A DNA stretch of 25,274 nucleotides from an uncultured Oscillospiraceae bacterium (GTDB taxonomy: Bacteria; Bacillota_A; Clostridia; Oscillospirales; Oscillospiraceae). The translations under genes were made by a program, and so were the position numbers. The stretch is from contig CALXGD010000087.1 of NCBI GenBank assembly GCA_944387745.1, positions 1 to 25,274 of the forward strand, written 5' to 3'. This document shows, one piece after another, positions 5,411 to 18,820 of this stretch; the stretch's first letter is position 1; every line of letters begins with the position of its first letter. The notes beneath the pieces are model-generated. The model was not told the origin of the DNA and made no database searches. It saw nothing but the letters and a program-made list of their open reading frames with translations.

Positions 5411-5648
5411 AGGACAAATGCCTCCCTCTCCAAATTGATTGCAGCTGTGCATTCAGGATGTGGAGGCGCAGGAGCTTCTATACCAGAGCGGGCTCCGGTA
5501 AATTTTTGTTTTCCGCCGGGCGCGTCTTTTACCATACCTCCTGACAAGAGCTTTTTTTGTAAAATCACGCCGCCGCAAAAGAAATTTTTCTATGCGTGGA
5601 CGAAAGGATGCAACTTTTGCCCTCTGCCCGCCCAGGGTGAGGAGGGAT
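5411..5648. other. Divergent intergenic region between dacF and the phage-like cluster
   Basis: These 238 bases are more AT-rich than the flanking genes in the 5500-5600 part (runs of A and T). On the minus strand TGGTATAGA (TATAGA at 5482-5477) resembles an extended -10 element that could serve dacF, but has no good -35. On the plus strand I found no pair of boxes with acceptable spacing, so how the phage-like cluster is switched on is not evident. A reading frame starting at an ATG at 5592 enters the terminase gene but has no ribosome site. Confidence 0.3.
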
Positions 5649-5951
5649 ATGGTGAAACAGGAAACTAAAAAACTGGACCGGGCACTGCTGCTGGAGCAAA
5701 TGCGGAAGCTAGCCTGCGCCAAGGTAAACGACGCTGTCAAGCTGGCCTTCCTCCCGGAGGAGGAGCGGGACACCATCGGGCGGCTGGATCTGTCTGCCCT
5801 AACTGAGTTCCGGCGCAGCGGCGCGGGGACGGTGGAGATGAAGTTTACCGACCGGATGCGGGCTCTGGAGCGGCTGCTGGAGCTGAGCGGCCCCGGTGGA
5901 GAGGACCAGCTGGAGGACTTTCTCCGGCGTATGGAGGGGCTGGAGGATTGA
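5649..5951 (+). CDS. Putative phage terminase small subunit
   Basis: A small acidic, helix-rich protein of 100 residues immediately before the large terminase gene, where the DNA-recognition subunit of the packaging motor normally sits. The segment KVNDAVKLAFL followed by LTEFRRSGAGTVEMKFTDRM resembles small proteins annotated as terminase small subunit in clostridial prophages, but I see no clear helix-turn-helix, so the call rests largely on position. Start choice: ATG at 5649 or the adjacent in-frame GTG at 5652; the GAGGAGGG just upstream is better spaced for the GTG. The stop overlaps the TTG start of the large terminase gene. Confidence 0.6.
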   Translation: MVKQETKKLDRALLLEQMRKLACAKVNDAVKLAFLPEEERDTIGRLDLSALTEFRRSGAGTVEMKFTDRMRALERLLELSGPGGEDQLEDFLRRMEGLED

Positions 5952-7204
5952 AGGGATTGAAATTTTCTCCCAAGCAGAGGAGAGTCCTCACCTGGTGGCG
6001 GCCCAGCTCCCAGGACAGCTGCTACGACGCCATCCTCTGCGACGGGGCGGTGCGCAGTGGAAAAACACTGTGTACCGGACTGTCCTTCTTCTGTTGGGCC
6101 ATGACCTGTTTTTCGGGGAAAACCTTTGCCCTGTGCGGTAAATCCGTCCCGGCGGTGCGGCGGAATCTTCTACAGGAGTTGCGGCCGCTGCTCCGAAAAA
6201 TGGGCTTTCGATTGGATGAGCGCAGCTCACAAAATCGAATCGAAGTCACCCTGGGCCGGCGGCAGAACACCTTTTACCTGTTCGGCGGTCTGGACGAGCG
6301 GTCCGCCGCCCTGGTCCAGGGAATCACCCTGGCGGGGGCGCTCCTGGACGAGGCGGCGCTGATGCCCCGCTCCTTTGTGGAGCAGATGTGCGCCCGCTGC
6401 TCGGTGGAGGGGAGCCGGCTGTGGTTCTCCTGCAATCCAGAGAGTCCGGCCCACTGGTTTTATCGGGAGTGGGTGCAGAAGGCCACCGAGAAAAACGTCC
6501 TACGGCTGACTTTTACCATGGGAGACAACCCGGGGCTCTCCCCGGAGATCGTACAGCGGTATGAGTCCTTGTTTCAGGGGGCCTTCTACCGGCGGTTTAT
6601 CCTGGGGGAGTGGACGGAGGCGGAGGGGCTGGTCTACGATTTCTTTGGGCCAGAGCTGGTACGAAAGGTCCCGGAGGATTTGGCCGGGCCCTGGTATATC
6701 TCCTGCGACTACGGGACCGTGAACCCTACCTCTATGGGACTGTGGGGACAAAAGGGCGGGGTGTGGTATCGGGTAAAGGAGTTTTACTACGACTCCCGAA
6801 GGGAGCGGCGGCAGAAAACAGACGGGGAGTACGCCCGGGACCTGGCGGAGCTGGCCGGTGGGCGGACCCTGAGCGGCGTGATCGCAGACCCATCAGCGGC
6901 CAGCTTTTTGGAGCTGCTCCGCCGGGAGGGGTGGCCGGTGTACAAAGCTCAAAATGACGTGCTCTCTGGCATCCGTATTACAGCGGAGCTGCTGCGGTCG
7001 GGAAAGCTGGTCATCTGCTCCCCCTGTGAGGACGCCATTCGGGAGTTTGGCCTGTACCGGTGGGATACCTCCGGAACCGCAGGCGACCGGGTCATCAAAG
7101 AACACGACCACGCCATGGATGAGATCCGCTACTTTGCCGCCACGGTGGCGGCAAAAAGTGGCGGCGGTTTTTTTGCCGGAAGCGTGGAGCGGAACATCGG
7201 ATAA
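5948..7204 (+). CDS. terL: Phage terminase large subunit (ATPase/nuclease)
   Basis: The motor protein that cuts and pumps DNA into proheads. The 418-residue protein has both domains. In the ATPase, Walker A is GAVRSGKT (33-40) and Walker B ALLDEAA (131-137), with the catalytic Glu at 135. In the RNase H-like nuclease the three metal-binding aspartates are in SCDYG (D254), VIADPS (D314) and HAMDEIRY (D391). All key residues are intact, so the enzyme looks functional. It starts with TTG overlapping the stop of the preceding gene (TTGA); an in-frame TTG at 5957 is an alternative, with GGAGG about 10 nt upstream. It resembles the PBSX XtmB/Terminase_6 type. Confidence 0.93.
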   Translation: MKGLKFSPKQRRVLTWWRPSSQDSCYDAILCDGAVRSGKTLCTGLSFFCWAMTCFSGKTFALCGKSVPAVRRNLLQELRPLLRKMGFRLDERSSQNRIEVTLGRRQNTFYLFGGLDERSAALVQGITLAGALLDEAALMPRSFVEQMCARCSVEGSRLWFSCNPESPAHWFYREWVQKATEKNVLRLTFTMGDNPGLSPEIVQRYESLFQGAFYRRFILGEWTEAEGLVYDFFGPELVRKVPEDLAGPWYISCDYGTVNPTSMGLWGQKGGVWYRVKEFYYDSRRERRQKTDGEYARDLAELAGGRTLSGVIADPSAASFLELLRREGWPVYKAQNDVLSGIRITAELLRSGKLVICSPCEDAIREFGLYRWDTSGTAGDRVIKEHDHAMDEIRYFAATVAAKSGGGFFAGSVERNIG

Positions 7205-7280
7205 AAAATAGCCAGGCACGCCCTCTCTTACCGTTTGGACGCGCCGGACGTGGAGATCCGAGAAACGGAGGAAGGTAATT

Positions 7281-8423
7281 TTGAAATGGTTTGCGAAGAA
7301 AAAACCGGAGGTCCGACTCCCCCAGGTACAGCTGCGGGACACGGCGCATCACCCCTTTGGGGCGGTGGACCGGTACGTCCCGCTAGGCCGGGGAGAGCTG
7401 GACCTGTACCGCTCCATCCGGGAGGCGGTGCCCATTGTGGACGCCGCCATTCTCAAGCTGGTGCGGCTGTGCGGGGGTGTGTTGGTCCGGTGCCCAGACC
7501 CAGCGGGCCAGGAGGAATTGGATCGTTTTTTGCTCCAGGTGGACACCGGGAGGGGCCAGACAGGGATCCAGTCCTTTTTGGACCAGTATCTGGACTCCAT
7601 GTTTACCTGCGGCCAGGGGGTGGGTGAGATGGTCCTGACCCCAGACGGGCGGGACATCGCCGCCCTGCTGTGCGCCGACCCCGGCCAGGTGGAGGTCCAG
7701 GAAGGGGACACCCCCCTGGATTTCCGGCTGTGCGCACGGGACCGGGGCGGACAGCTCCAGGAGCTACCCTGGCAGGAACTCCTATTGTTCACCCCCTTTC
7801 AGCCGGGGACGGACTTCCCCTATGGGGCGTCACTGCTCCGGTCCATGCCCTTCTTGTGTGGCATCCTGCTGAAAATCTATCAGGCCATTGGCCAGAACTG
7901 GGAGCGGGCGGGCAGCCTGCGCTTTGCGGTGGTGTGCAAACCCGGCGAGGGGGACGGCCTGTCCGCCCAGGAGCGGGGGGAGCTGGTGGCCAGGGAGTGG
8001 TCCTCTGCTATGGGCTCTACCCGACAGGGGGCGGTGAGGGACTTTGTGGCGGTAGGGGACGTGGACATTAAAGTCATTGGGGCGGACAGTCAGATCCTAG
8101 ACAGCGAGGTGCCGGTGCGGCAGATTTTGGAGCAGCTCATTGCCCGGACGGGGATTCCCCCCTTTCTGCTTGGACTATCCTGGTCGTCCACCGAGCGCAT
8201 GAGCGCCCAACAGGCCGACCTGCTCACCAGCGAGATCACTGCCATCCGGCGGAATGTGGAGCCTGTGATACGGAAAATTAGTTCTCTGTGGATGCGCCTC
8301 CACGGGATCCCGGGCCAAGCCACCGTGGACTGGGAGGATATCAATCTCCAGGACCTGGTAGAGGAGGCCAGAGCCGCCCTCTATCGGGCCCAGACAGAAC
8401 AGATCAGAAGGGAGAACACATGA
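7281..8423 (+). CDS. Phage portal protein (PBSX/XkdE-type)
   Basis: Portal proteins form the dodecameric ring at the unique capsid vertex through which DNA enters and leaves. The 380-residue protein follows the large terminase and precedes the protease, the standard portal position. Portal-like features are the N-terminal SIREAVPIVDAAILKLVRLC helix, LLLFTPFQPGTDFPYGASLL in the body, and IARTGIPPFLLGLSWSSTER followed by a long C-terminal helical region, typical of the clip/wing/crown arrangement. The start is a TTG at 7281 preceded by GGAGGAAGG at 5-6 nt. A weak pairing CCGTTT/AAACGG (7231-7236, 7263-7268) touches the ribosome site. The stop overlaps the next ATG as ATGA. Confidence 0.88.
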   Translation: MKWFAKKKPEVRLPQVQLRDTAHHPFGAVDRYVPLGRGELDLYRSIREAVPIVDAAILKLVRLCGGVLVRCPDPAGQEELDRFLLQVDTGRGQTGIQSFLDQYLDSMFTCGQGVGEMVLTPDGRDIAALLCADPGQVEVQEGDTPLDFRLCARDRGGQLQELPWQELLLFTPFQPGTDFPYGASLLRSMPFLCGILLKIYQAIGQNWERAGSLRFAVVCKPGEGDGLSAQERGELVAREWSSAMGSTRQGAVRDFVAVGDVDIKVIGADSQILDSEVPVRQILEQLIARTGIPPFLLGLSWSSTERMSAQQADLLTSEITAIRRNVEPVIRKISSLWMRLHGIPGQATVDWEDINLQDLVEEARAALYRAQTEQIRRENT

Positions 8424-9355
8424 AAGTCATCAAAACGAATCAAGAACATCCATCCCCTCTGCCTCCTGAACATCTGGAGGCCATTAACCGGCTCAGCCGC
8501 ACACAGCTGACGGCGGAGCAGATATACACCTTCTCCGTGCGGCTGTGTGACAACGAGGTAGACCGGGACGGGGAGCGCTTTGCCCCGGGGACATTGGAGC
8601 AGCTGGCCCCCCTGTTTGCGGGCAAGAGCGGACTCTTTGACCACAACTGGAGCGCCAAAGGCCAGGCGGCCCGGCTCTACCGCACCGAGGTTGTGGCGGA
8701 GTCTGGACGGTTCACTCAGGCCGGGGACCCCTACCGCTGGCTAAAGGGGTACGCCTATATGGTCCGCACCCCGGATAACCAGGGCTTGATCGCCGAAATC
8801 GAGGGCGGCATCAAAAAGGAGGTCAGCGTGGCCTGCGCCGTGGAACGGGCGGTGTGCTCCATCTGCGGCGCGGCCAAGGAGGAAAACTGCGGCCACAGGC
8901 CCGGCGAACGGTACGACGGGAAGCTGTGCTATCTCAGTCTGGAGGGGGCATCCGACGCCTATGAGTTCTCCTTTGTGGCGGTGCCTGCCCAACCCGGCGC
9001 CGGGGTGGTAAAGGGCTTTATGTCCGGCCGGAAACCCACCGCGCTGAGAGAGCTGGTCCAGGGAAACACCGCCTGTACAAAGGAGCTGGAGACTTTGGAG
9101 CGGCAAGCGCTGGCGGGCCGGAGGTGGCTGGCCGCCCTGCGGGCCGATGTGGTGCGGCTGGGAGGGCTGGCCGACCCCAATCTGGATTTACAGGTGCTGA
9201 AAGCCATTGCGGACAAGCTTGATGAGGGGGAGCTGCTGGAGCTGAAGGGAGCCTATGAGGCCCGAGCCCGGGAGCGCTACCCCCTGGCGGCGCAGCTGAG
9301 CTACCGGCAGGAGGGTGAAAAAAGGTCTGAGGAGGACGGGGCCTTCCTAGTGTAA
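8420..9355 (+). CDS. Phage prohead protease with zinc-knuckle-like insert and possible fused scaffold region (XkdF-like)
   Basis: Proposed capsid maturation protease, 311 aa from the ATG overlapping the portal stop (ATGA; GGGAG upstream). The N-terminal half resembles the HK97 prohead protease fold: DRDGERFAPGTLEQL, GLFDHNW with a candidate catalytic His75, KKEVSVA with candidate Ser136, and YEFSFVAVPAQPGAG. Between the last two sits CSICGAAKEENCGH (C146, C149, C157, H159), with another Cys at 170, an arrangement that could bind a metal. From about residue 205 the protein is charged and helical (ELETLERQALAGRRWLAAL), as expected of a scaffolding domain; no separate scaffold gene exists before the capsid gene. 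The catalytic assignment is by analogy. Confidence 0.78.
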   Translation: MKVIKTNQEHPSPLPPEHLEAINRLSRTQLTAEQIYTFSVRLCDNEVDRDGERFAPGTLEQLAPLFAGKSGLFDHNWSAKGQAARLYRTEVVAESGRFTQAGDPYRWLKGYAYMVRTPDNQGLIAEIEGGIKKEVSVACAVERAVCSICGAAKEENCGHRPGERYDGKLCYLSLEGASDAYEFSFVAVPAQPGAGVVKGFMSGRKPTALRELVQGNTACTKELETLERQALAGRRWLAALRADVVRLGGLADPNLDLQVLKAIADKLDEGELLELKGAYEARARERYPLAAQLSYRQEGEKRSEEDGAFLV

Positions 9356-9359
9356 GGTC

Positions 9360-9390
9360 CAGCGGGAGAGGAAATCTCTCCCCTACGCTG
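9360..9390 (+). repeat. Short palindrome between protease and decoration genes (CCCCTAC-flanked hairpin)
   Basis: GGGAGAG (9364-9370) and CTCTCCC (9376-9382) form a 7-bp stem with loop GAAAT, extended outward by CAGCG/CGCTG (9360-9364, 9386-9390) across a small bulge. The 3' side reads CTCCCCTAC, matching the layout of a second hairpin at 23955-23971 that is also followed by CCTAC. It could be a small dispersed repeat or a hairpin that shapes mRNA levels ahead of the capsid genes. No U-tract follows. Confidence 0.5.
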
Positions 9391-9422
9391 TGTATATCAA
9401 AAAAATAAGAGGAGGAAAACAC

Positions 9423-9767
9423 ATGAGTAAGGTCTCTTTTGAGGACATCGGCGCGGCAGTGGTTACCTTTGCCGCAAAGGACGACGTAAAACCTGGACAG
9501 GTGGTGAAGGTCACGGCCAACGGCCAGGTGGGAGCGTGCAGCTCAGGCGACGCCTTTGCAGGCCTAGCCCTCTCCACCCGGAACGGCTTTGCTGGAGTAC
9601 AGGTGAAGGGATTCCTGACGGTAGCCACCACCGGCACGGTGAATCTGGGCCGGGTCAATCTGTCCGCCGACGGCAGCGGCGGAGTGCAGGCCGCCTCCGC
9701 CGGCGGAGTACCTGCCCTGGTGGTCAGTGCGGACAGTACGGCCAAGACCGCGGTTATTTGTCTGTAA
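9423..9767 (+). CDS. Putative capsid decoration/stabilisation protein
   Basis: A 114-residue, beta-rich, Gly/Ala/Val-rich protein placed between the protease and the major capsid gene, where many phages encode a head decoration protein. Features are the short beta-strand pattern VKPGQVVKVTANGQVGAC, DAFAGLALS and VQVKGFLTVATTGTV, similar in style to gpD-like or DUF2190-like decoration proteins. The ATG at 9423 has AGGAGGAAA upstream. No enzyme motif is present. The function is inferred from position and composition. Confidence 0.6.
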   Translation: MSKVSFEDIGAAVVTFAAKDDVKPGQVVKVTANGQVGACSSGDAFAGLALSTRNGFAGVQVKGFLTVATTGTVNLGRVNLSADGSGGVQAASAGGVPALVVSADSTAKTAVICL

Positions 9768-9789
9768 AAGAATAAGGAGGTTTTACAAG

Positions 9790-10830
9790 ATGGCAAATCA
9801 ATTCGATACCATCCGCCTGGAGAAGGGGATGTATCAGGAGGCGGGCCGCTCCTTTACCCAGGTGCTGGAACGGCTGGATCCCTCGGAACAGTACAAGGGG
9901 ACCAGCCTGGAGGGGCTGGACGCCTTTCAGCGGCAGCTCAAGCGCTTTGACATCAAGGTGAAGGGGGTGGCCTCCGACCCGGTGGAGAAATTCTTCCGCA
10001 CGGCGGACTCGGCGGTGCTCTTCCCCGAATACATCGCCCGGTCGGTGCGCCCGGGGATGGAGGAGGCCAACCTGCTTCCCGCTATCACCGCCGCCACCAC
10101 CCGCTTTGAGGGGATGGACTACCGCTCTATCACCGCCGAGGCCGGGGGCGGTGAGAAAGAGCTGAAGGCGGTAGACGAGGGGGCGGCCATTCCCGCCACC
10201 ACTATCAAGGTGCAGGCCAACCTGGTGAAGCTCCACAAGCGGGGCCGGATGCTGGTGGCCTCCTATGAGGCGGTGCGCTATCAGAAGCTGGACCTGTTCT
10301 CCGTCACCCTGCGACAGATGGGGGCCCACATCGCCCGGATGCTCCTGTCCGACGGGGTGGAGGTGCTGATGAACGGGGACGGCAACGGGAACGCCGCCGC
10401 CGTGGACGAGACTTCCACCGCCTCCGCCCTCACCTATGACGAGCTGGTGGAGTTCTGGGGCAAGTTTGACCCCTATGAGATGAACACCATCCTGGTCAGC
10501 CCCGACGTGATGCTGAAGATGCTCAAGCTCAGCGAGTTCAAGGACCCCCTCACCGGCCTAAACTTCCAGGGCACCGGCAAGCTCACCACCCCCTTGGGGG
10601 CCACTCTGCTGCGCACCTCTGCAGTGCCCGAGGGCACCGCCATCGGCCTGGACCACCGGTATGCCCTGGAGCTGGTCCAGGGCAGCGACGTGATGGTGGA
10701 GTACGACAAGCTCATCGACCGGCAGCTGGAGCGGGCAGCCATCACCACCCTGTGCGGCTTTGCTAAGCTGTTCCCCGCCGCCTCCCGGGTTCTGAAGATC
10801 AAGGCGGCTTCAGCCGGCGGGGACAGCTGA
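9790..10830 (+). CDS. Major capsid protein (HK97-fold, XkdG-like)
   Basis: The predicted shell-forming protein, 346 aa. It has a helical N-terminal arm (residues 1-85), then FFRTADSAVLFPEYIARSVR, a pattern typical of N-arm/P-domain entry in this family, a variable E-loop region around EAGGGEKELKAVDEGA, and a C-terminal part with NTILVSPDVMLKMLKL and TPLGATLLRTSAVPEG, typical of HK97-type capsid A-domain strands. ATG at 9790 with AAGGAGG upstream. No internal stops or frameshift. The length is normal for a small HK97-type capsid, consistent with an intact head gene. Confidence 0.85.
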   Translation: MANQFDTIRLEKGMYQEAGRSFTQVLERLDPSEQYKGTSLEGLDAFQRQLKRFDIKVKGVASDPVEKFFRTADSAVLFPEYIARSVRPGMEEANLLPAITAATTRFEGMDYRSITAEAGGGEKELKAVDEGAAIPATTIKVQANLVKLHKRGRMLVASYEAVRYQKLDLFSVTLRQMGAHIARMLLSDGVEVLMNGDGNGNAAAVDETSTASALTYDELVEFWGKFDPYEMNTILVSPDVMLKMLKLSEFKDPLTGLNFQGTGKLTTPLGATLLRTSAVPEGTAIGLDHRYALELVQGSDVMVEYDKLIDRQLERAAITTLCGFAKLFPAASRVLKIKAASAGGDS

Positions 10831-10831
10831 G

Positions 10832-11182
10832 ATGACGGAAAAGATCGTAGCCCTGGCCAAGGCTCTGGGGGCGGAGACAGACCAGGAGGAGCTGCTGTCC
10901 GTTCTGTGTCAGGCGGCTCAGCAGGAGCTGGAGGGCCGGCTGAGGCCGGGTGTGACGCCGGATGACTGTGAGAGTGCCTTTGTGCCCGCTGCGGCCTGGA
11001 TGGCCCTGGCGTGGTTGAACACGGGGAACGGGGGCGAGGGCGTCACTGCCTTCACCGCCGGAGACGTGACCATCCGGAAGGAGGGCGGTCGGGAAACGGC
11101 CGCCCTCCTGGACCAGGCTGGGCGGATTATGGCCCCCTATCTCCAGGACAGCGGCTTTGCCTTTCTGGGGGTGGGGGGATGA
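10832..11182 (+). CDS. Head-tail connector protein (gp6/YqbG-like adaptor)
   Basis: A 116-residue helical protein directly after the capsid gene, starting one base after its stop. Connector adaptors of this kind form the ring below the portal. The alpha-helical N-terminal half (MTEKIVALAKALGAETDQEE) and SAFVPAAAWMALAWLNTG resemble head-tail connectors of the gp6 superfamily. Assignment rests on gene order (equivalent to PBSX xkdH position) and size. The stop overlaps the next start (ATGATG). Confidence 0.6.
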   Translation: MTEKIVALAKALGAETDQEELLSVLCQAAQQELEGRLRPGVTPDDCESAFVPAAAWMALAWLNTGNGGEGVTAFTAGDVTIRKEGGRETAALLDQAGRIMAPYLQDSGFAFLGVGG

Positions 11183-11514
11183 TGGAGCGGACGTGGTCCG
11201 CACTGCTGGCCCGATATGGACAGGAGGTGACGCTGCACCGGGGGGAGACGGAGACGAACGGAAGGGCCTTCCTCCAGCCCATCCGGGAGACCGGGCGGGA
11301 GCAGCAGGTCCCCAGTCCCCTGGGCCTGCGGCGGGAGGACCGGTTTTTATATCTGGGAGAGGCGGGGCAGCCGCTGGCCCGGACAGACTGGGTGGAGTGG
11401 AACGGAGCAGCCTATACCGTACAGTCCGTTCACCTGGTCTATGTGGGGCAGACGGGCCTGTACACCTGGGCAGTGCTCCGGCCGCGGGATCCAGAACAGG
11501 AGGGAACGCTGTGA
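11179..11514 (+). CDS. Head-closure / head-tail joining protein (YqbH/XkdI-like)
   Basis: A 111-residue beta-rich protein in the head-closure slot between adaptor and tail terminator. It begins with MMERTWSALLARYGQEVTLH; WVEWNGAAYTVQSVHLVYVG and YTWAVLRPRD resemble the small beta-barrel stopper proteins of myovirus and siphovirus necks. Two adjacent ATGs (11179 and 11182) are possible starts; the first overlaps the preceding stop. The next gene starts at a GTG overlapping this stop (GTGA). Confidence 0.55.
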   Translation: MMERTWSALLARYGQEVTLHRGETETNGRAFLQPIRETGREQQVPSPLGLRREDRFLYLGEAGQPLARTDWVEWNGAAYTVQSVHLVYVGQTGLYTWAVLRPRDPEQEGTL

Positions 11515-12014
11515 GCAGAGAATTGGATACCGTCCGGGAGGCAGTAGCGGACTATCTCAACCGCCTGGGCGTCCCTGCGGCGGTGGCATGGCCCGCCCAA
11601 GAGCGGCTGCACCGGGAGAAGGCGGTGGCTGTGGTGACGCTCAGGGCCTTTCAGTGGGGCCCGGCAGGCTTTCAAACCTATCTGGGCGAGCGGTACAACC
11701 AGGAGACCGGACAGTGGGAGGAATTGTACGGACACAGGGCCCGGCTCACCTTCGGCCTGGACCTGTATGCGCCGGCTCAGGCAGGAGAGACGGCCCTGCA
11801 AACCGCCCTGGATGACCTGGCCCTGGCCTGCGCCGGAGGAGGACCGGACGGCCTCACCTTTCAGGAATTTTCCAGTGGAGAGACTGTATATGACCAGGAC
11901 AGCCGCCTGCTGCGCAAGCCGGCTCAGGCGGTGTGCACCGTCTGTCTGTACGCTGCGGCTCAGCCGGGCGGCACATTCCTGGACTTTGAGATCAGAGGGG
12001 AGCAAATTTTATGA
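11511..12014 (+). CDS. Tail terminator / tail completion protein (XkdJ-like position)
   Basis: A 167-residue protein between the head-closure gene and the tail sheath, where tail terminators are encoded. The N-terminus (SRELDTVREAVADYLNRLGV) and a central AVAVVTLRAFQWGPAGFQTY followed by LTFGLDLYAP are compatible with the alpha/beta fold of tail terminators (gpU-like). The start is GTG at 11511, with AGGAGGG 6 nt upstream, overlapping the previous stop. The stop overlaps the sheath ATG. Function is inferred from position. Confidence 0.55.
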   Translation: MSRELDTVREAVADYLNRLGVPAAVAWPAQERLHREKAVAVVTLRAFQWGPAGFQTYLGERYNQETGQWEELYGHRARLTFGLDLYAPAQAGETALQTALDDLALACAGGGPDGLTFQEFSSGETVYDQDSRLLRKPAQAVCTVCLYAAAQPGGTFLDFEIRGEQIL

Positions 12015-13069
12015 GTATGACCACGCACGAGCGCCCAGGGGTGTATTCCTCCTATGGCGCGTCCTCCCTTGTCCGCGGAAGCGGAGGGAGAAAGACCGTA
12101 GGGCTGGTGGCGGTGAACGCCAAGGCCACCGCCAACACGGTCTATACCATCACCAGCTACGAGGATGCGGTGACGATTTTTGGCAGCGCCGGCGGTCAGG
12201 ACATGTCCGAGCTGATCCGGGTAATTCTGCTCAACGGGGCCGCCGCCGTCGCGGCGGTCCCCGTGGCCAGCGCCGACGGGTATGAGGCCGGCTTTGCCGC
12301 CCTGGCCGCTTTGGAAAATATCAGCGTGGTGGTGTGCGACAGCACCACCCAGAGTGATCAGCAGGACCTGCGGGACAGTGTGGTCTCCGCCTCCGCTGCC
12401 CGGCGGGAGCGGATCGCTGTGGTGGCCGGGGCGGCCGGTGAGACGGTAGCCAACCTGGTGGAACGGGCAGAGGCCCTCAACAGTGAACGGGTGGTGCTGG
12501 TGGCCCCCGGCGGGACCGACAGCGACGGGACCGCTCTGTCCGGCCTCACCGCCGCCGCGGCGGTGGCGGGGGCCATTGCCGCCCAGACAGACCCGGCTCT
12601 CCCCTTGAGCGGGGCGGAGCTGATGGGGCTGAAGGGCCTCTCCCAGGGGTACAGCGACAACGATGTGGACCTTCTGGTTCGAGGCGGCGTGACCCCTCTG
12701 GAGAGCGTATCGGGTGTCATTTCCGTAGTGCGGGGTATTACCACCCGCACCACCACCGGGAGCTCTCCCGATTCCACATGGCGGGAGCTGTCCACCATTT
12801 TGATTGTAGATGACGTGATTCCCGCAATTCGGGACGCTCTGCGATCCAAGTTCCGCCGGGCAAAAAATACTGAACAGAGCCGGGGGGCCATCCGCTCCCA
12901 GGTGGTGCTGGAGCTGGAGAACAAGCTCAGCCGTGAGATCATCACCGGCTATGAGCATGTGACGGTGACAGCGGACCCAGAAAACCCCACTGTGTGCCTG
13001 GTGGAGTTCTCCTTCACCGTGGCTCACGGTCTCAACCAGATCTGGCTGACGGCCAGCATCACCATCTGA
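12011..13069 (+). CDS. Contractile tail sheath protein (XkdK-like, compact)
   Basis: The contracting outer tail layer, which makes this a myovirus-type particle. N-terminal HERPGVYSSYGASSLVRGS is the usual sheath opening in which the Pro-Gly-Val-Tyr segment links subunits. ITSYEDAVTIFGSAGG and MSELIRVILLNGAAAVAAVP follow, and the conserved C-terminal domain ends with LELENKLSREIITGYEHVTV and VEFSFTVAHGLNQIWLTASI. At 352 residues it is shorter than many sheaths, which often exceed 400, suggesting a minimal version without extra surface domains. ATG at 12011 overlaps the previous stop. Confidence 0.92.
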   Translation: MSMTTHERPGVYSSYGASSLVRGSGGRKTVGLVAVNAKATANTVYTITSYEDAVTIFGSAGGQDMSELIRVILLNGAAAVAAVPVASADGYEAGFAALAALENISVVVCDSTTQSDQQDLRDSVVSASAARRERIAVVAGAAGETVANLVERAEALNSERVVLVAPGGTDSDGTALSGLTAAAAVAGAIAAQTDPALPLSGAELMGLKGLSQGYSDNDVDLLVRGGVTPLESVSGVISVVRGITTRTTTGSSPDSTWRELSTILIVDDVIPAIRDALRSKFRRAKNTEQSRGAIRSQVVLELENKLSREIITGYEHVTVTADPENPTVCLVEFSFTVAHGLNQIWLTASITI

Positions 13070-13077
13070 CCAACTGC

Positions 13078-13102
13078 GGGCCGCCCGGGAACCGGACGGC
13101 CC
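13078..13102 (+). repeat. GC-rich hairpin between sheath and tube genes
   Basis: GGGCCGCCCGG (13078-13088) and CCGGACGGCCC (13092-13102) pair over 11 positions with one C-A mismatch and a GAA loop. It lies in the 58-bp gap between sheath and tube. Without a U-tract it is more likely an mRNA processing or stability element than a terminator; it could help set the different amounts of sheath and tube. Confidence 0.45.
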
Positions 13103-13127
13103 GGATGAAGCAAGGAGGGAGTTTTCA

Positions 13128-13517
13128 TTGAGCATTGCAGGATTTCCAACCAGCAGCGACATCTATCTGGAGGTGGACGGCACCAAGGTGGCTGTAGTAC
13201 AGAGCTATACAGCCAAGGCCGCCAAGACCAGCCGGGCAGTGGAGGCCTTCGGCGAATCGGAGCCCGTGGCCACCGTCCCGGGACAGGCCACCCATGTGCT
13301 GGAGCTGACCCGGCTGTACGCCACCGACGAGGCCATCCGGGACGGTATTGATTTTTACAGTCTGAGTGACTTCTCTCTGGTGATCTGCAAACCGGATCGA
13401 AAGGTGATCTACTCCAACTGTCAATGGAGTGGGATCCAGGAGACCGGCACCCTGGGAGACATGGTACTGGAGCAGGTGACCATTGTGGCCGGCAAACGGC
13501 TGGAGACGGAGGTGTAA
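13128..13517 (+). CDS. Tail tube protein (XkdM-like)
   Basis: The inner tail tube subunit, 129 aa, immediately after the sheath gene. MSIAGFPTSSDIYLEVDGTK, FGESEPVATVPGQATHVLEL and GTLGDMVLEQVTIVAGK match the beta-barrel layout of PBSX-type myovirus tubes. Start is TTG at 13128 preceded by AAGGAGGGA. The stop is followed after 3 nt by the chaperone ATG. Confidence 0.83.
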   Translation: MSIAGFPTSSDIYLEVDGTKVAVVQSYTAKAAKTSRAVEAFGESEPVATVPGQATHVLELTRLYATDEAIRDGIDFYSLSDFSLVICKPDRKVIYSNCQWSGIQETGTLGDMVLEQVTIVAGKRLETEV

Positions 13518-13520
13518 GCA

Positions 13521-13862
13521 ATGAGCATATCTATTTTGGCCCGCCGGGACTGGATGGATCTTCAAAACGGGATGCGGCTGCGGCTGCTGTCCGCCTTGGA
13601 AGTGCTCCAGGCCCGGAGAGAGGCTGAGGAGTTGGCCCAGGGAGAGCGGGAGCGGGCCCTGTGCTCCAACGCCTGCCTGCTGGCCCGGGCGCTGGAGACT
13701 GCGGAGGGAAAACCGGTCTTTTCCAGTGGCCGCCAGGTACTGACCGGTCTGAGAGTGGAGGAGATCGACGCCCTGATTGGAACCTGGAGCCGGTTCAACC
13801 GGGAGGAGAATCCACCTCTGGGTATGGAACAGGCTCAGGCGGAGGATGTAAAAAAAAACTAA
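13521..13862 (+). CDS. Tail assembly chaperone, short form (XkdN-like)
   Basis: A 113-residue helical, charged protein between the tube gene and the tape-measure position, where phages encode the tape-measure chaperone. LSALEVLQARREAEELAQGE and CSNACLLARALETAEG form an amphipathic core, as in XkdN-like proteins. ATG at 13521 with GGAGGTG upstream. The frame ends GAT GTA AAA AAA AAC TAA, with an A AAA AAC heptamer directly before the stop, so a fraction of ribosomes should shift to -1 and make a longer protein of about 210 residues using the frame up to 14152. Confidence 0.75.
   Translation: MSISILARRDWMDLQNGMRLRLLSALEVLQARREAEELAQGERERALCSNACLLARALETAEGKPVFSSGRQVLTGLRVEEIDALIGTWSRFNREENPPLGMEQAQAEDVKKN
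13853..13859 (+). promoter_or_regulatory. Programmed -1 ribosomal frameshift site (A AAA AAC)
   Basis: Nine A residues (13850-13858) followed by C place the canonical slippery heptamer A AAA AAC in the zero frame of the chaperone gene, with AAC as its last sense codon and TAA (13860-13862) next. Slipping back one base joins the long open -1 frame running to 14152. This matches the G/GT-type frameshift of tail chaperone genes in many tailed phages. Confidence 0.82.
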
Positions 13863-14152
13863 GTGAGAACGGAGAGGAGCGGCTGCGCTGGAAGGTGCTG
13901 AAGGCCTTTCACGCCCTGCCCACCGAGGAACGGTCCAGGGCCATGCGGGACCGGGACTTTGTTTGGTGCCTGACTCATATGGCCCTGGACCAGGAGGAGA
14001 AGCTGTCACGGCTGTGCCCCAGCTGCCGCGTCAAGGCGGAGGAGCCACGCTGTCCCGTATGTGGACGCCCCACGTCTCTGGGGGAGGGGGCGGTCAACCC
14101 CGCCTTTGATGAGGACCGATTTATACGGCTGAAACAGGGGAGGGCGCAATGA
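13859..14152 (+). CDS. Frameshift extension of the tail assembly chaperone (GT-type), with zinc-ribbon-like motif
   Basis: The -1 frame adds 97 residues to the chaperone after the slippery site. The segment starts LSENGEERLRWKVLKAF and continues with EERSRAMRDRDFVWCLTHMA, a helical region, then CPSCRVKAEEPRCPVCGRPT, two CxxC pairs that look like a zinc ribbon. It lacks a well-placed start codon of its own; a GTG at 13895 is possible but without a good ribosome site. Frame arithmetic (0 to -1), the slippery heptamer and the gene order all favour a fusion product. The stop overlaps the ATG of the next gene. Confidence 0.75.
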   Translation, partial: LSENGEERLRWKVLKAFHALPTEERSRAMRDRDFVWCLTHMALDQEEKLSRLCPSCRVKAEEPRCPVCGRPTSLGEGAVNPAFDEDRFIRLKQGRAQ

Positions 14153-14820
14153 GAGATTATTTGGAGGAACTGCTGGAGCTGTTGCCCCCGGAGGAAGAGA
14201 CAGCTCCGGCCCGGTGGCTGTCTGAGACAGAAGCTGGCTTTTTCCAGCAGGAAGAGGCCGTGGAACAGGGAATTTTCTCAGAGGAAAGCGACGTCTGGAT
14301 GAAACTGCCGACTTTTCCAGATGCCCGTGATACAGCAGAAACGCCTCTGGAGCTGCTCCCGGGGCAAGAGGCGGCAACCCAGCAGCCGAAAGGGGACACC
14401 GTACTTCTTTCAGAGAGCGGACAGGATCCGGCTCTCCCACAGGAGTCAAAGGGTGAAACAGAGGGCTTCTCCCCTGCGCCAGCGCCCCTCTCCACAGAGA
14501 GGGGTGGCCTGGAGCAGCTGGCCCGGCAGGAACAGCTGCGGAGACGGCCCGCTATGTTGACACAGGCCCAGTCCCTGACCCGCGCGCTTGCTCAGGCCCA
14601 GGTGTTCGCGCGGGAGGGCCGCAGAGAGGGAAGGGCGCTCAGGCAATCTGGCGGAGGCGGAGAGGTGGCCCACATTCTCCCTCCCTCCGCTGGCGAAAAC
14701 GGACAGAGGCAGACCGCTCCAGAGGACCGACTTCCCCAGGAGGAGGCCCAGGCCCGATCCGTGGATCGGGCCTTTCAGCGGGACAGCCGGCGCTATGACC
14801 GGGGGTTCTCCCTGTACTAA
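14149..14820 (+). CDS. Unrecognised 223-aa protein in the tape-measure position
   Basis: In PBSX-type phages this position holds a tape measure protein of many hundred residues. Here there is only a 223-residue, low-complexity protein. The first half is acidic and Pro/Glu/Gln-rich (LPPEEETAPARWLSETEAGF) and likely disordered. The second half is basic and helical (MLTQAQSLTRALAQAQVFAR, then many Arg), ending RRYDRGFSLY. It could be a very short tape measure for a short tail, or an unrelated assembly factor replacing it. No transmembrane segment is present. ATG at 14149 overlaps the frameshift-product stop (ATGA), so it is translated with the chaperone. Confidence 0.5.
   Translation: MRDYLEELLELLPPEEETAPARWLSETEAGFFQQEEAVEQGIFSEESDVWMKLPTFPDARDTAETPLELLPGQEAATQQPKGDTVLLSESGQDPALPQESKGETEGFSPAPAPLSTERGGLEQLARQEQLRRRPAMLTQAQSLTRALAQAQVFAREGRREGRALRQSGGGGEVAHILPPSAGENGQRQTAPEDRLPQEEAQARSVDRAFQRDSRRYDRGFSLY
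14750..14773 (+). repeat. Perfect 11-bp inverted repeat inside the tape-measure-position gene
   Basis: AGGCCCGATCC (14750-14760) and its exact complement (14763-14773) are separated only by GT, and are followed by TTTC. It lies within codons near the 3' end of the 223-residue gene, about 65 bp before the LysM gene. It could be an RNA hairpin that lowers or separates expression of the baseplate genes, or a dyad protein-binding site. Confidence 0.6.
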
Positions 14821-14837
14821 AAAGGAGGAATACAGCT

Positions 14838-15416
14838 TTGATTCTGACGCCAATGCGATATAAGGGGTACACCTGGCCCCACAATCCCAGAGTGTACTCC
14901 ATTGACTATGAGCGAAAAATGGCCGTCAATAAGGTGCCCTTCGGGCTCTACTATCTTCAGGATTTGGGGCGAACTCGGAGAGTCATGGAGGGCGAGGGGG
15001 AATTTGTAGGGCCAGAAGCCTACTCCCAGTTTGGACAGCTGGCTAACGTGTTCTATGAGGAGGGGCCCGGCCTGCTGGTCCATCCCATCTGGCAGGCGGC
15101 CAGCGCCTATTTTATATCCCTGCGGGTGGAGCAGGAGCCGCTTCCCGACTATGTGCGGTACTCCTTTGTGTTTTGGGAGGAGTCCACCTGCTACAGCGGG
15201 GAGCTTCAGAGCGAAAATGTTTCTCAGCCCGGCGGCGCGGCCTCCGCCGCGCCTGCTCGTCCTGTCTCCAGCAGTCAGTATCGGGTGGTACAGGGGGATA
15301 CTCTGTGGGACATCGCCCGAAAATTTGGTCTCTCCCTGGAGAGCTTGATTGCCCTCAACCCCCAGATCAAGAATCCCAATCTGATTCATCCGGGAGACGA
15401 GGTGAGGGTGGCGTGA
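14838..15416 (+). CDS. LysM-domain tail protein (XkdP-like)
   Basis: A 192-residue protein at the xkdP position. The N-terminal ~120 residues match the tail protein part of XkdP/gp53-type LysM proteins (NPRVYSIDYERKMAV, then VFYEEGPGLLVHPIWQ). A Pro/Ala/Ser linker (131-146) leads to one LysM domain (about 148-191: YRVVQGDTLWDIARKFGLSL to HPGDEVRV) that can bind glycan chains. In particles of this type it sits at the tail tip or baseplate centre. Start is TTG at 14838 with AAGGAGGAA upstream. The stop overlaps the next GTG (GTGA). Confidence 0.85.
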   Translation: MILTPMRYKGYTWPHNPRVYSIDYERKMAVNKVPFGLYYLQDLGRTRRVMEGEGEFVGPEAYSQFGQLANVFYEEGPGLLVHPIWQAASAYFISLRVEQEPLPDYVRYSFVFWEESTCYSGELQSENVSQPGGAASAAPARPVSSSQYRVVQGDTLWDIARKFGLSLESLIALNPQIKNPNLIHPGDEVRVA

Positions 15417-16363
15417 CCGGATATGTGTTTTCCGCCCAGGGAGAGAGAATCTCCCTGCCCATGCCGGTGGCCTGGACATTTCAGTATACTGCCGGGGTCC
15501 CCTGCGACAGCTTTCGGCTTCGGTGCATCTGGGAGGGAGAGAATGAGGTGCAGCCGGGCGAGTGGAGCACCTTTCAGGCGGTAGAGGGCAACGAAGTAAA
15601 ATTCACCGGGGTGGTGGACGAGTGTGAGACCGTGCGGGAGCCAGAGGGCTCCTACTTCGAGGTAAGCGGGCGAGGGATGGCCGCCCGGTTGCTGGACAAC
15701 GAGGCCCTGAGCCAGGACTATGAGGCGGCCACCCTGGAGGACATTCTGCGGGACCACGTGACGCCCTATGGAATCCAGGTGGGGGAACAGAGCTCTATGG
15801 GGGCGGTCTCTCAGTTCTCTGTAGCTGCAGGCAGCAGCGAGTGGTCGGTGCTCTATGACTTTACCCGATATTATCACGGCGTGTCCCCCCGCTTTGATCA
15901 GCTGGGCCGGCTGATCCTATCCCCCTGGGACAACAGCGAGGAGCTCATTTTAGACAGCACGGTTCCCGTTCGGCGCCTGGTGTGCCGAGACAAGCGGTAT
16001 GGAGTGCTGTCTCAGGTTGTGGTGCGGGACCGCTATCAGAACCGGGCCACCACCGTGGAGAATCCGGCCTTTCAGGCCCTAGGCGGGCGGCGGCGGCAGG
16101 TAGTTACCATGCCGGGCAAAAGCCAGTATCAGGCCATGCGGTACAGCGGGCAGTTTCAGCTGGACCAATCCGCAGCGGATCAGCTGCGCCTGGAGGTGGA
16201 GATTCCCAAGCTGTTCTTTGCCAAGCCGGGGGATCTAGTGCGTCTAGAGCAGCCGCGATGGGGGCGCAACGGCCAGTACCGAGTGGCGGAGGCCCAGGTG
16301 GGACAGGACAGCCAGGGGGCATGGACCAGGCTGGAGCTGACGCCGCCGGAGACAACTTTGTGA
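15413..16363 (+). CDS. Baseplate hub protein (XkdQ-like, gp27/late-control-D family)
   Basis: The central baseplate hub connecting tail tube and spike; 316 aa from the GTG at 15413, which overlaps the LysM gene stop and has GAGGTGA upstream. The reading frame extends upstream, but no better start exists. N-terminal beta-rich part (LPMPVAWTFQYTAGVPCDSF, GVVDECETV, FEVSGRGMAARLLDNEAL) is the OB/beta-barrel arrangement of XkdQ; the C-terminal part QLRLEVEIPKLFFAKPGDLV with YRVAEAQV resembles the second hub barrel. Close in length to PBSX XkdQ. Confidence 0.8.
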   Translation: MTGYVFSAQGERISLPMPVAWTFQYTAGVPCDSFRLRCIWEGENEVQPGEWSTFQAVEGNEVKFTGVVDECETVREPEGSYFEVSGRGMAARLLDNEALSQDYEAATLEDILRDHVTPYGIQVGEQSSMGAVSQFSVAAGSSEWSVLYDFTRYYHGVSPRFDQLGRLILSPWDNSEELILDSTVPVRRLVCRDKRYGVLSQVVVRDRYQNRATTVENPAFQALGGRRRQVVTMPGKSQYQAMRYSGQFQLDQSAADQLRLEVEIPKLFFAKPGDLVRLEQPRWGRNGQYRVAEAQVGQDSQGAWTRLELTPPETTL

Positions 16364-16373
16364 GGTGACAGAG

Positions 16374-16808
16374 ATGTGGACATCCAATCGAAAAGCAGAG
16401 GGGCGCACAGAGGAGTGCGCCGCGGATCAGGGCACCGTAACTTTGGGAGGTGACCCGGCCGGAGTGTATCTGGGCGGGGAGCGACGCTGGGTCTCTCTCT
16501 ATGCGCCGGGGGGCTACCAGTGGCGGCCGAAGGCCGGCGACAAGGTGCTGGTGGTGAAGGCGGGAGGCCAGAGGGAGCTCCCCTGTCTGGTGGGGATGCG
16601 TCCGGAAGAAATAGAGGGGGAGGAGGAGCTCCCCCCGGGCTCAGTGCGCATCCACAGCGGCACTGGGGCCCTGCTGCTGTCTGAGGAGGGGGCCGCTTTG
16701 AAGGGAGACAGCGTGGCCCTGGAGGGAGAGGTCACAGTCAACGGCCAGGAGCTGACCTCCTTAATTCAGGCCATTGTATATGAGGTGCTGGCCGCTATAC
16801 TGGGATAG
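16374..16808 (+). CDS. Baseplate spike/assembly protein (gpV/XkdR-like)
   Basis: A 144-residue beta-rich protein between hub and wedge genes. The first part (GTVTLGGDPAGVYLGGERRW to GDKVLVVKAGGQ) looks like the OB fold of baseplate spike proteins; the second (GSVRIHSGTGALLLSEEGAA, KGDSVALEGEVTVNG) has the short beta repeats of a trimeric spike. It ends with a helical LTSLIQAIVYEVLAAILG. The ATG at 16374 is chosen because GAGGTGA lies 5-6 nt upstream; a GTG at 16365 lies inside that ribosome site. Confidence 0.65.
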   Translation: MWTSNRKAEGRTEECAADQGTVTLGGDPAGVYLGGERRWVSLYAPGGYQWRPKAGDKVLVVKAGGQRELPCLVGMRPEEIEGEEELPPGSVRIHSGTGALLLSEEGAALKGDSVALEGEVTVNGQELTSLIQAIVYEVLAAILG

Positions 16809-16819
16809 GAGGCAGGGAA

Positions 16820-17173
16820 ATGGAACTGAAGCTTGAGCAGGGGGACTATGTCCCAGACAGCGCGGGAGGGCTTGAGAGCCTGACAGGGGCCCAGGCGCTG
16901 CTGGCCCGGGTGCTGTTCCGCCTCACTGCCCGGCGGGGGCAGTTCCCCTTTCTGCCGGAGCTGGGCAGCAGGCTCTATCAGCTGGGACGGGAGCGGCCCT
17001 CCGCACGGGAGGCGATGGCCCTGCAATATGTGGCGGAGGCCCTCACTCCAGAGGCGGATCTGGCCGTTTTATCTGCCCAGCTGGAGGAAAAATCGGACGG
17101 CCGGGCCGGACTGTACGTACAGATGGAGTGGCGGGGCACGCCCCTTGCCGTCCAGCTGGACCTGACGCTGTGA
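16820..17173 (+). CDS. Baseplate wedge protein (gp25/XkdS-like, GPW_gp25 family)
   Basis: A 117-residue protein with gp25-like features: GAQALLARVLFRLTARRGQF as the entry helix, then FPFLPELGSRLYQL (the family's G-S-x-L/I pattern), AMALQYVAEALTPEADLAVL and a terminal strand LAVQLDLTL. gp25 proteins nucleate the sheath on the baseplate. ATG at 16820, 11 bp after the spike gene, with GGAGGCAGGG upstream. A further contractile-tail marker. Confidence 0.78.
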   Translation: MELKLEQGDYVPDSAGGLESLTGAQALLARVLFRLTARRGQFPFLPELGSRLYQLGRERPSAREAMALQYVAEALTPEADLAVLSAQLEEKSDGRAGLYVQMEWRGTPLAVQLDLTL

Positions 17174-17185
17174 GGAGGGGTACAA

Positions 17186-18241
17186 GTGAAAACAGTAGAT
17201 GAAATTTTTCAGGAGATGCTCGCCTGCTTTGGGGAAAAGACCGGAATGGCTCTGGAGGAGGGGTGCGATCTGGCGGTGCGCCTCTATGCGGCGGCAGCCC
17301 AGGTATACGCCCTCTATGTCCAGGCGGAGTGGGTAACGCGGCAGGCATTTCCCCAGACGGCGGAGGGAGATTATCTGGATCTCCACGCTCAGCTGCGCAG
17401 CCTGGAACGAAAGCCCGCCACCTGTGCGGTGGGCACGATCCGCTTTACCGCCGGAGAGACCAGTGAGAGCGACCGCCCCATCCCTTTGGGCACGGTATGT
17501 ATGACCGCAGGACTGGTGCGTTTCGAGACCACACAGGCTGCTGTCCTATCGGCCGGGAGCACCCAGGTAGATGTGCCCGCACAGGCTCTGGTCGCCGGAA
17601 GCTCCGGCAATGTGCCCGCCCACGAGATTCTCACGATGGCGGTGGCCCCGGTGGGAATCCAGAGCTGTGACAATCCAGCTCCCTTTCTGGGAGGGAGCGA
17701 CAGGGAGAGCGATCAGGAGCTGAGAGTCCGGGTGATGGACACCTTTCAGCGGCTGCCCAACGGGGCAAATGCCGCCTTTTACCAGCAGGAGGCCCTGTCC
17801 TTTGATCAGGTGGCGGCCGCCTCTGTGCTTCCCAGGAGCCGAGGGGTGGGCACCGTGGATGTGGTAGTGGCTGCCAAAAGCGGACAGCCAGACCAGGAAC
17901 TGCTGGAGGAGCTGGAGAATTATTTTCAGCAGCGGCGGGAGATCGCGGTGGACGTGCAGGTGCTGGCTCCGGAGGAGGTGGACCTCACTGTGTCCGTCCA
18001 GGTGAAGGCTGAGGCCGGGCGCGACAGTACTGAGGTCTGTACAAAAGTTAAAGATGTCCTTCAGGCTTGGTTTTCAGGGGAGCGCCTGGGACAGGACGTC
18101 CTTCTGGCCCAGCTGGGTAGCCTCATCTACGGCTGTGAGGGGGTGGCCAATTACAAAATCCTGTCCCCCGCCGCCGATGTATCCATTGATCCGGACCAGC
18201 TTCCGGTCTCCACATCTGTAAGCGTGGAGGCGATGACATGA
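17186..18241 (+). CDS. Baseplate J-like protein (gpJ/XkdT)
   Basis: The baseplate wedge component gp6/gpJ, 351 aa, the family's usual length. Conserved landmarks are TRQAFPQTAEGDYLDLHAQL (the 'G..LD..A...G/L' entry motif), VDVPAQALVAGSSGNVPAHE (typical A..aG..GNv sequence), PFLGGSDRESDQELRVRVMD (GG.d.EsDe.lR.R), RGVGTVDVVVAA and LTVSVQVKAEAG. The start is GTG at 17186 with GAGGAGGGG upstream. The stop overlaps the next ATG. Confidence 0.92.
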   Translation: MKTVDEIFQEMLACFGEKTGMALEEGCDLAVRLYAAAAQVYALYVQAEWVTRQAFPQTAEGDYLDLHAQLRSLERKPATCAVGTIRFTAGETSESDRPIPLGTVCMTAGLVRFETTQAAVLSAGSTQVDVPAQALVAGSSGNVPAHEILTMAVAPVGIQSCDNPAPFLGGSDRESDQELRVRVMDTFQRLPNGANAAFYQQEALSFDQVAAASVLPRSRGVGTVDVVVAAKSGQPDQELLEELENYFQQRREIAVDVQVLAPEEVDLTVSVQVKAEAGRDSTEVCTKVKDVLQAWFSGERLGQDVLLAQLGSLIYGCEGVANYKILSPAADVSIDPDQLPVSTSVSVEAMT

Positions 18242-18819
18242 GCTACGCCCAATACCTGCGGACTTTGCTGGCTCCCCTGGGGGTCTACGATCTGAACGCC
18301 CCCTTCCAGGGAGGTGAGCTGGAGGCACTGGGGGAGGCCTTTGACCTGGCGGAGGCGGATCTGGAGGAGCTGTGCCGGGAGTCCTGCCTGGCCACGGCGG
18401 AGAGCTGGGGTCTGGAGCAGATCGCCGCGCTGTTCCGCCGCCGGCCCCCCGCCTCCACAGTGAAAGCTCTGCGGGAGGCTCTGGCTGCCCTGCTGCGCAT
18501 CGGCGGAGACAGCTTCACCCTGGCGGCCATCAACGACACCATCTCCGGCTGCGGTGTCAACGCCAAGGTGGAAGAGACTCAGCAGGCGGGAACTGTGGAG
18601 GTCTCCTTCCCCCAAGTGCCGGGGATTCCTCCAAACTTTGAGGAGATTCGAGTCATCATTGAGGACATCATCCCCGCTCACCTGGCAATTCAGTACCACT
18701 ACTGGTATCTCACCTGGGAACAGCTGGAGGAAAAGTTCTCCTGCTGGCAGGATATTGAGGACAAAAATTTGACTTGGTACGGCCTGGAGACCTACGTGGA
18801 GCCGGAGGATGAGACATAA
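18238..18819 (+). CDS. Tail protein I / YmfQ-like baseplate protein (XkdU, DUF2313)
   Basis: A 193-residue protein, the same length as PBSX XkdU, encoded directly after gpJ with ATGA overlap. MSYAQYLRTLLAPLGVYDLN and LGEAFDLAEADLEELCRESC followed by STVKALREALAALLRIGGDS fit the DUF2313/YmfQ layout; the C-terminal DIIPAHLAIQYHYWYLTWEQ is also typical. In phages this gene is followed by tail fibre genes; here it is the last gene before a terminator. Confidence 0.85.
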   Translation: MSYAQYLRTLLAPLGVYDLNAPFQGGELEALGEAFDLAEADLEELCRESCLATAESWGLEQIAALFRRRPPASTVKALREALAALLRIGGDSFTLAAINDTISGCGVNAKVEETQQAGTVEVSFPQVPGIPPNFEEIRVIIEDIIPAHLAIQYHYWYLTWEQLEEKFSCWQDIEDKNLTWYGLETYVEPEDET

Positions 18820-18820
18820 G

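Follow-up and report, generated by a model that had tools for sequence, protein, structure and literature searches.

A contractile phage particle maintained in Oscillospiraceae as a likely gene transfer agent

Among the described systems closest to the one reported here, RcGTA and the other alphaproteobacterial type I gene transfer agents (GTAs; Rhodogtaviriformidae) have a gene cluster of similar size, and PBSX of Bacillus subtilis has a contractile tail and a similar gene order, and combines lysis genes of its own with a long tape measure within a single element. The system in question is a phage head, packaging and contractile-tail cluster of ~13 kb, located in a stretch of 25,274 bases with 62% GC (contig CALXGD010000087.1; the window) from an Oscillospiraceae bacterium near Pseudoflavonifractor, and not from a gut Clostridium, as the initial annotation had assumed. 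The presence of the cluster is confirmed: 20 tightly packed plus-strand genes, all of them open, extend between positions 5649 and 18819, with the small terminase gene TerS first and a gp48-like gene last. We consider it likely that they encode a domesticated contractile phage particle, which is vertically kept in Oscillospiraceae and acts as a GTA.

Recognised GTAs have non-contractile tails or no visible tail (PMC9662315, PMC12946183; these and the following literature statements refer to the accessible parts of the cited papers). RcGTA has a TerS that lacks a DNA-binding domain and binds DNA non-specifically (PMC6854486), and a tape measure of ~216 residues (113 + 83 + 20), which spans a tail with five tube discs (PMC7296036). 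Its genes are spread over several operons (PMC12946183), and type I GTAs co-evolve with their hosts (PMC9662315). The present system is similar in the missing TerS domain, the size of the tape-measure slot and the co-evolution, and its genes may likewise be dispersed. It differs by its sheath, its myovirus-type baseplate and its Gram-positive host, whereas the available descriptions of RcGTA mention no sheath. FpGTA of Faecalibacterium, compared by description only, is podovirus-like and has a size of 10.5 kb (PMC12946183), in contrast to the contractile type found here. The putative TerS of BaGTA of Bartonella also lacks the domain, which a review states for the putative TerS of all known GTAs, and a replication origin is tied to the production of BaGTA (PMC11841831); comparably, replication-type genes here share a site with the cluster. 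The BaGTA host is unrelated and its tails are reported as short, or long and non-contractile (PMC9662315). PBSX packages ~13-kb pieces of host DNA and is reported not to inject DNA (PMC12946183); in the present system the lysis genes are probably located elsewhere and TerS is truncated. A 2026 study observed GTA-like packaging in Onthomonas, a member of the Oscillospiraceae, in 3 of 25 events without finding the operon, and of the four metagenome-assembled genomes (MAGs) searched there only one from Faecalibacterium contained a strong candidate operon (PMC12946183). Within the open literature, i.e. outside subscription papers and preprints, no paper was found that describes the cluster by title or abstract. 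A GTA is a known kind of system; the contractile tail, the host range and the dispersed, site-linked genes are what would set the present one apart.

Several lines of evidence point to vertical descent. For 15 cluster genes, the protein distances are correlated with those of rpoB across 16-19 genomes (Mantel r 0.71-0.94, permutation p 0.001), and for 9 cluster genes r reaches 0.80-0.91 in 23-26 genomes. Gene trees unlike that of the host, as expected for a prophage, are not what this congruence with rpoB indicates. The concatenated cluster tree and the rpoB tree have 14 of 23 splits in common and disagree in 9. The rpoB tree comprises 45 genomes, 19 of which were chosen as cluster carriers; 30 random family genomes yielded 26 with usable rpoB, including 9 carriers. 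In this tree the cluster occurs in 24 of 28 genomes of one clade and in 4 of 17 of the sister clade. In three of the four non-carriers of the first clade (G025, G029 and G039) rpoB is truncated, so these MAGs may be partial.

The structural genes are under purifying selection, with a median ratio of non-synonymous to synonymous substitution rates (dN/dS) of 0.09 for the tube, 0.12 for the major capsid protein (MCP), 0.14 for both the large terminase (TerL) and the portal, 0.23 for the sheath and up to 0.43 for small head proteins; the neighbouring gene dacF has a value of 0.21 (6 pairs). These values were obtained by the Nei-Gojobori method (NG86), which is crude at this GC content, from 30 disjoint close pairs, of which 1 to 30 were usable per gene, and over all pairs the ratios are higher. 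In 8 of 10 genomes, the distance between the sheath gene and the nearest tyrosine integrase among the matches listed is 46 to 286 kb, and in the other two no listed tyrosine integrase is present on the sheath contig. The tests for domestication proposed in the initial annotation are borne out by clade synteny, congruence with rpoB, purifying selection, a single copy and the lack of a listed integrase nearby, and we regard the domestication of the cluster as almost certain.

The distribution of the cluster was determined by scanning genome contigs with the sheath alignment, which gave 97 loci, the best 80 of which were kept. Their titles refer to Oscillospiraceae genera (Flavonifractor, Pseudoflavonifractor, Lawsonibacter, Flintibacter, Evtepia and others) or to broad groups, and a few are from MAGs called Clostridium or Ruminiclostridium. 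Carriers include Flavonifractor plautii ATCC 29863, Flintibacter muris DSM 110149 and Pseudoflavonifractor strains. Both cluster ends are present in 55 of the 80 loci, where they span 12.3-13.6 kb, and the gene lengths are conserved across loci. Synteny, suggested earlier as a check with dacF and recG as the neighbours, is conserved within clades; dacF is found upstream in 29 of 80 loci and recG downstream in 4, and some of the remaining loci have other neighbours in common. Of 20 further loci with best sheath identities of 23-64%, 18 contain most of the genes over a length of 11.5-13.8 kb; one of the 20 (L248) is cut by a contig end.

Among 400 genomes sampled from the GTDB family to which CCNA10 belongs, MCP is present in 144 and the sheath in 132, both nearly always as a single copy; by hand comparison ~148 of the 400 carry one or the other. 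The sheath is single-copy in all 12 genomes checked. At order level 23 of 394 genomes are positive, 17 of which were already in the family sample. No internal stop was reported in the MCP matches of the 144 genomes. Among 50,697 phage records, the sheath matches 2 and the capsid 9, and the close ones are all unannotated faecal scaffolds. TerL matches 1399 phage records, the closest named phage among the 20 listed being 48.9% identical.

Some traits of the cluster favor a GTA. TerL of the window contains a Walker A motif (GAVRSGKT), a Walker B motif (DE) and D254, D314 and D391, presumably the nuclease triad; 105 of 105 aligned TerLs share them all. The packaging, head, sheath, tube and baseplate genes, which had been read from the window together with intact TerL residues, are confirmed and open. 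The TerS of the window matches the Terminase_2 profile only from position 57 of 141 and below the curated cut-off, and that of locus L001 behaves likewise. In 61 relatives TerS has 95-106 amino acids (aa), and one more is shortened by a contig end. Four of five phages with a related TerL possess a TerS that matches Terminase_2 from position 1, while the TerS of the fifth, R10.1, matches helix-turn-helix (HTH) families only. As shown by these profile matches, the cluster TerS has lost its N-terminal recognition domain. In 69 loci, among them the window, the tape-measure slot measures 423-863 bp. The lengths of its open reading frames (ORFs; 132-289 aa, median 196) were assigned by a longest-ORF rule, which probably gave a few wrong frames, and the slot size is therefore the safer figure. 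A full-length tape measure had been noted as missing from the window; the slot is in fact occupied, but short (14149-14820, 223 aa), which would correspond to a short tail.

A conserved palindrome provides a possible link between the cluster and genes elsewhere in the genome. The sequence TGNACGNAAACGTRCAAC occurs within 3 mismatches upstream of TerS in 48 of the 62 loci with enough DNA in this region (window included), compared to 1 of 1240 shuffled versions. The site is an imperfect palindrome and a candidate operator of the whole system. For the best matches within 4 mismatches, its start is located 41-93 nt (median 56) upstream of that of TerS. The window contains 2 matches versus 0.13 expected, the second one inside mutY. 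In 12 cluster-bearing genomes, a related pattern with at most 2 mismatches yielded 34 sites versus 5 for the reversed control. By hand assignment, 8 of the 34 lie ahead of the cluster, where a TerS match confirms 6 and location the other 2, and 8 are left without an explained target. In G278, G006 and G191 the site precedes holin/endolysin operons, with amidase and holin ~3-5 kb downstream (by Pfam matches for G278 and G006). At the site in G202 and G009 there is a small membrane protein, accompanied by a C39 peptidase on the palindrome's other strand. Genes for proteins with a carbohydrate-binding module (CBM5/12) or for fibre-like proteins follow the site in G191, G006, G011 and G765 (PF02839 in G006, the others by likeness). 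RepA_N genes are found behind it in G278, G191 and G006 and on the other strand in G202, which suggests that a replication step may be tied to particle production. DnaB-like genes are found 1.2-4.5 kb behind the site in G278, G101 and G006 (by likeness in G006, where the link is weak because opposite-strand genes intervene). G011 has a DUF6291 gene and a 135-aa gene without family match behind the site.

In the clade of the window (8 genomes) the site is present at the cluster in 7 genomes. It also precedes small membrane proteins and an Amidase_2 gene in G004, and DUF6291 genes at a distance of 58-61 nt in G002, G762 and G763; most other sites of this clade are without explained target. A search of 20 further cluster-bearing genomes gave 21 sites in 11 genomes versus 0 in the control: 6 precede TerS, 5 precede CBM5/12-like, DUF6291, fibre-like or amidase-like genes (by Pfam for DUF6291 only), and 10 are unexplained or within other genes. 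In 12 cluster-free genomes, only 2 sites were found, both inside mutL-like genes. The spacing between site and start is 58-63 nt for 14 of 15 CBM, DUF6291, RepA and fibre-like targets (83 nt for the other) and 125-158 nt for three lysis operons. Taken with the unlinked holin/endolysin operons, these data favor, for the genomes of relatives, the earlier guess that lysis is encoded elsewhere: in G278, G006, G191, G202, G009 and G004 the site stands with lysis-type genes, which may be co-regulated with the cluster. Among the 68 loci with gp48, a CBM5/12 protein is located directly behind the cluster in 8 and a PF05105 holin in 4, and G088 also has such a holin; in the window neither is found directly behind the cluster.

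How could such a system work? A dedicated regulator would bind the palindromic site and switch on all units in some cells, and RepA_N, together with DnaC-like, DnaB-like or DUF6291 genes, may amplify host DNA before packaging. The motor with its non-selective TerS would then fill small heads with random host DNA, and a short contractile tail would be added to the filled heads. Holin and endolysin from another locus would release the particles, which would inject the host DNA into kin. On the basis of gene content and sequence comparison, we consider it probable that the particle is a GTA in the sense of packaging host DNA, while the delivery of this DNA is favored only by a modest balance of the evidence. 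The wider proposal of an ancient contractile-tailed GTA of the Oscillospiraceae, with a dispersed regulon in which one palindromic operator serves the structural cluster, holin/endolysin, CBM5/12, fibre and replication-type genes and which is the source of the Onthomonas packaging, is put forward tentatively and has somewhat less than an even chance of being correct.

The main rival is an element like PBSX, which would package host DNA and kill like a tailocin without delivering DNA, i.e. would be domesticated for warfare and not for exchange. It would account for the contractile tail, for a gene order that is generally as in PBSX and other Firmicutes contractile phages, and for the carbohydrate-binding and fibre-like genes behind the common site. 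In contrast to PBSX, where lysis genes and the long tape measure are united in one element, the window contains no lysis genes, and only 4 of 68 relatives have a holin directly behind the cluster. The TerS without recognition domain, the short tape slot and the replication-type genes at the site also fit a PBSX-like element less well, but are still compatible with killing. PBSX is described as packaging 13.4-kb host fragments without injecting them (PMC12946183). We judge this explanation unlikely. A particle that is a tailocin only was rejected, since the genes for portal, capsid and the two terminase subunits are all intact. The same terminase genes, TerS and TerL within the operon and with intact catalytic residues, argue against a helper-dependent satellite or a protein-delivery particle, whose head would hold the DNA of another element or nothing. 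Lysis and replication genes outside the cluster would agree with such a particle, but lysis genes at host loci are tied in through the operator-like site, and clustering of ORFs revealed no recurrent cargo gene adjoining the cluster, which makes this a very improbable explanation.

More improbable still is that the cluster belongs to an ordinary temperate phage or is what remains of a decaying prophage. All its genes are phage-derived, many such contigs are present in IMG/VR, a number of them with ~13 kb, and both the patchy presence and the sheath in two pieces in two genomes would be in line with such an origin. Against this stand the vertical signal at each tested gene, purifying selection, the single copy, the MCP matches of 144 genomes without stops and the absence of a listed integrase nearby, and close matches of sheath and capsid in the phage records are limited to the unannotated faecal scaffolds. 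An ordinary or decaying prophage was rejected on the grounds of synteny, host-congruent trees, selection and the lack of a listed integrase nearby.

Some observations weigh against a vertically kept GTA with a common operator. Carriage in the sister clade is patchy (4 of 17), as is presence in the family, where ~63% of the genomes gave no match, some of them being partial MAGs; frequent loss of the cluster would follow from this figure. One of the 20 further loci (L238) covers 8.9 kb with undetectable baseplate genes, and its TerS retains a weaker Terminase_2 match from position 6. In L247, whose sheath is the least similar among the relatives, TerS matches Terminase_2 from position 1; both of these TerS keep an HTH-like part. 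The predicted structure of TerS is of modest confidence (pLDDT, the predicted local distance difference test score, 72.5), and a fold search with this model gave no PDB match. In G066 (C30) and G314 (C10) the sheath match is divided into two neighbouring pieces, perhaps due to a broken gene or an assembly error. The site copy of the window itself is degenerate, with 3 mismatches; its clade has 40 sites versus 16 in the control, 10 of the 40 belonging to one repeat family in G761, and the pattern has no site in 9 of the 20 further cluster-bearing genomes. Finally, a minority of relatives keep a holin or carbohydrate-binding gene directly behind the cluster.

If our interpretation as a GTA is true, a contractile GTA family is present in about a third of the sampled genomes of a gut family. 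Host-controlled exchange of genes in the gut could then be tested directly, since the isolates named above are carriers. The cluster is also a candidate source of the packaging that was seen in Onthomonas without a gene cluster (PMC12946183, accessible part), and the operator-like site would serve as a handle for locating the unlinked parts and the regulator. Furthermore, this host locus has been entered repeatedly in a virus catalogue (IMG/VR).

The features of the window are given below. Gene families were assigned by Pfam and PHROG profile matches, and several roles rest on gene position alone.

5597..5614, plus strand: operator-like element TGGACGAAAGGATGCAAC, degenerate; ~50 nt before TerS, 3 mismatches to the consensus of relatives
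5649..5951, plus strand: TerS, 100 aa, without N-terminal HTH domain; partial Terminase_2 match below the curated cut-off
5948..7204, plus strand: TerL, large terminase (PF03237, phrog_2)
7281..8423, plus strand: portal protein (phrog_30703, E 3e-155)
8420..9355, plus strand: probable head maturation protease/scaffold slot (phrog_16951, unknown function; protease role suggested by position)
9423..9767, plus strand: small virion structural (decoration-like) protein (phrog_4588)
9790..10830, plus strand: MCP (PF25209, phrog_3922)
10832..11182, plus strand: head-completion slot 1, by position; present in 78 of 80 loci, without family match
11179..11514, plus strand: head-completion slot 2, by position; present in 74 of 80 loci, without family match
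11511..12014, plus strand: putative neck/tail-terminator slot (phrog_25177, unknown function)
12011..13069, plus strand: contractile tail sheath (PF04984, PF17482)
13128..13517, plus strand: probable tail tube, from its place after the sheath (phrog_27038, unknown function)
13521..13862, plus strand: putative tail assembly chaperone, first part, by position; A-run at 13850-13858 before the stop
13868..14152, plus strand: tail assembly chaperone, second part, zinc-ribbon-like (PF18912 below cut-off)
14149..14820, plus strand: putative short tape measure slot, 223 aa, between chaperones and LysM protein; without family match
14838..15416, plus strand: LysM tail protein (PF01476, PF07157)
15413..16363, plus strand: baseplate hub (phrog_177)
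16365..16808, plus strand: baseplate spike-like protein of the oligonucleotide/oligosaccharide-binding (OB) type (PF04717 below cut-off; phrog_25991)
16820..17173, plus strand: gp25-like baseplate wedge (phrog_43 and phrog_975, both weak)
17186..18241, plus strand: baseplate J (PF04865, E 2e-54)
18238..18819, plus strand: gp48-like tail protein, last gene (phrog_521; PF10076 below cut-off)
18819..18865, plus strand: intrinsic terminator, 20-bp stem plus T tail

The A-run before the chaperone stop (13850-13862) resembles a programmed frameshift site, and the LysM tail protein matches PHROG endolysin families via its LysM domain only. Upstream, the cluster is flanked by glgD, glgC, glgB and dacF (named by reading, with Pfam families matched), and downstream by a 2-hydroxyacid dehydrogenase gene, recG, the gene of a C_GCAxxG_C_C protein, a mutY-like gene and the gene of a radical-SAM protein. 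Profile scans of the 20 cluster and 9 flank genes gave no match to integrase, repressor, replication or holin families, and no direct repeat of at least 16 nt brackets the cluster in the window. The absence of these families and of attachment repeats had already been noted from the letters, as had the strong final terminator, and for these 29 genes and this window the description holds.

A crude recombinase motif scan of 100 loci produced 3 matches in implausible frames and was not relied on. The pattern matches in mutL-like genes (L360-L362 and L366) were dismissed as chance, with MutL families matched for L360 and the others recognized by likeness, and a short TerS match of 17 residues in L282 proved to be the site itself and not a gene. 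The motif TGTATG(C/G)AAACGTGCAAT, found at 10 places in G761 and at one in G001, looks like a separate repeat family. In L314, L315, L319 and L324, a RepA_N gene lies beside the site between host-type genes and is followed in three of the four by a DnaC/IstB-like ATPase (L319 by likeness). DUF6291 genes (PF19808) stand 58-61 nt behind the site in five genomes (L322, L341, L346, L351, L370), and their product is possibly a regulator or replication factor. A lysis operon contains a protein of ~360 aa, one segment of which resembles sigma-70 region 4 (L310:1668-2744, with relatives in L311 and L312); this protein could be a regulator of the system.

IMG/VR repeatedly lists the cluster among its viral contigs (loci L081-L160), some with a length of ~13 kb, in spite of its being a host locus. 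The MT83xxxx scaffolds titled 'Bacteriophage sp.' look partly chromosome-like; they may stem from a study of virus particles from Mexican children (PMC8361208), the accessible part of which does not name the accessions, and these scaffolds were given no weight. One scaffold filed as bacteriophage (L196; MT835508) holds a head-only version, consisting of a TerS with a full Terminase_2 match, TerL, portal, a protease-like gene and MCP, which by reading adjoins ribosomal-protein genes.

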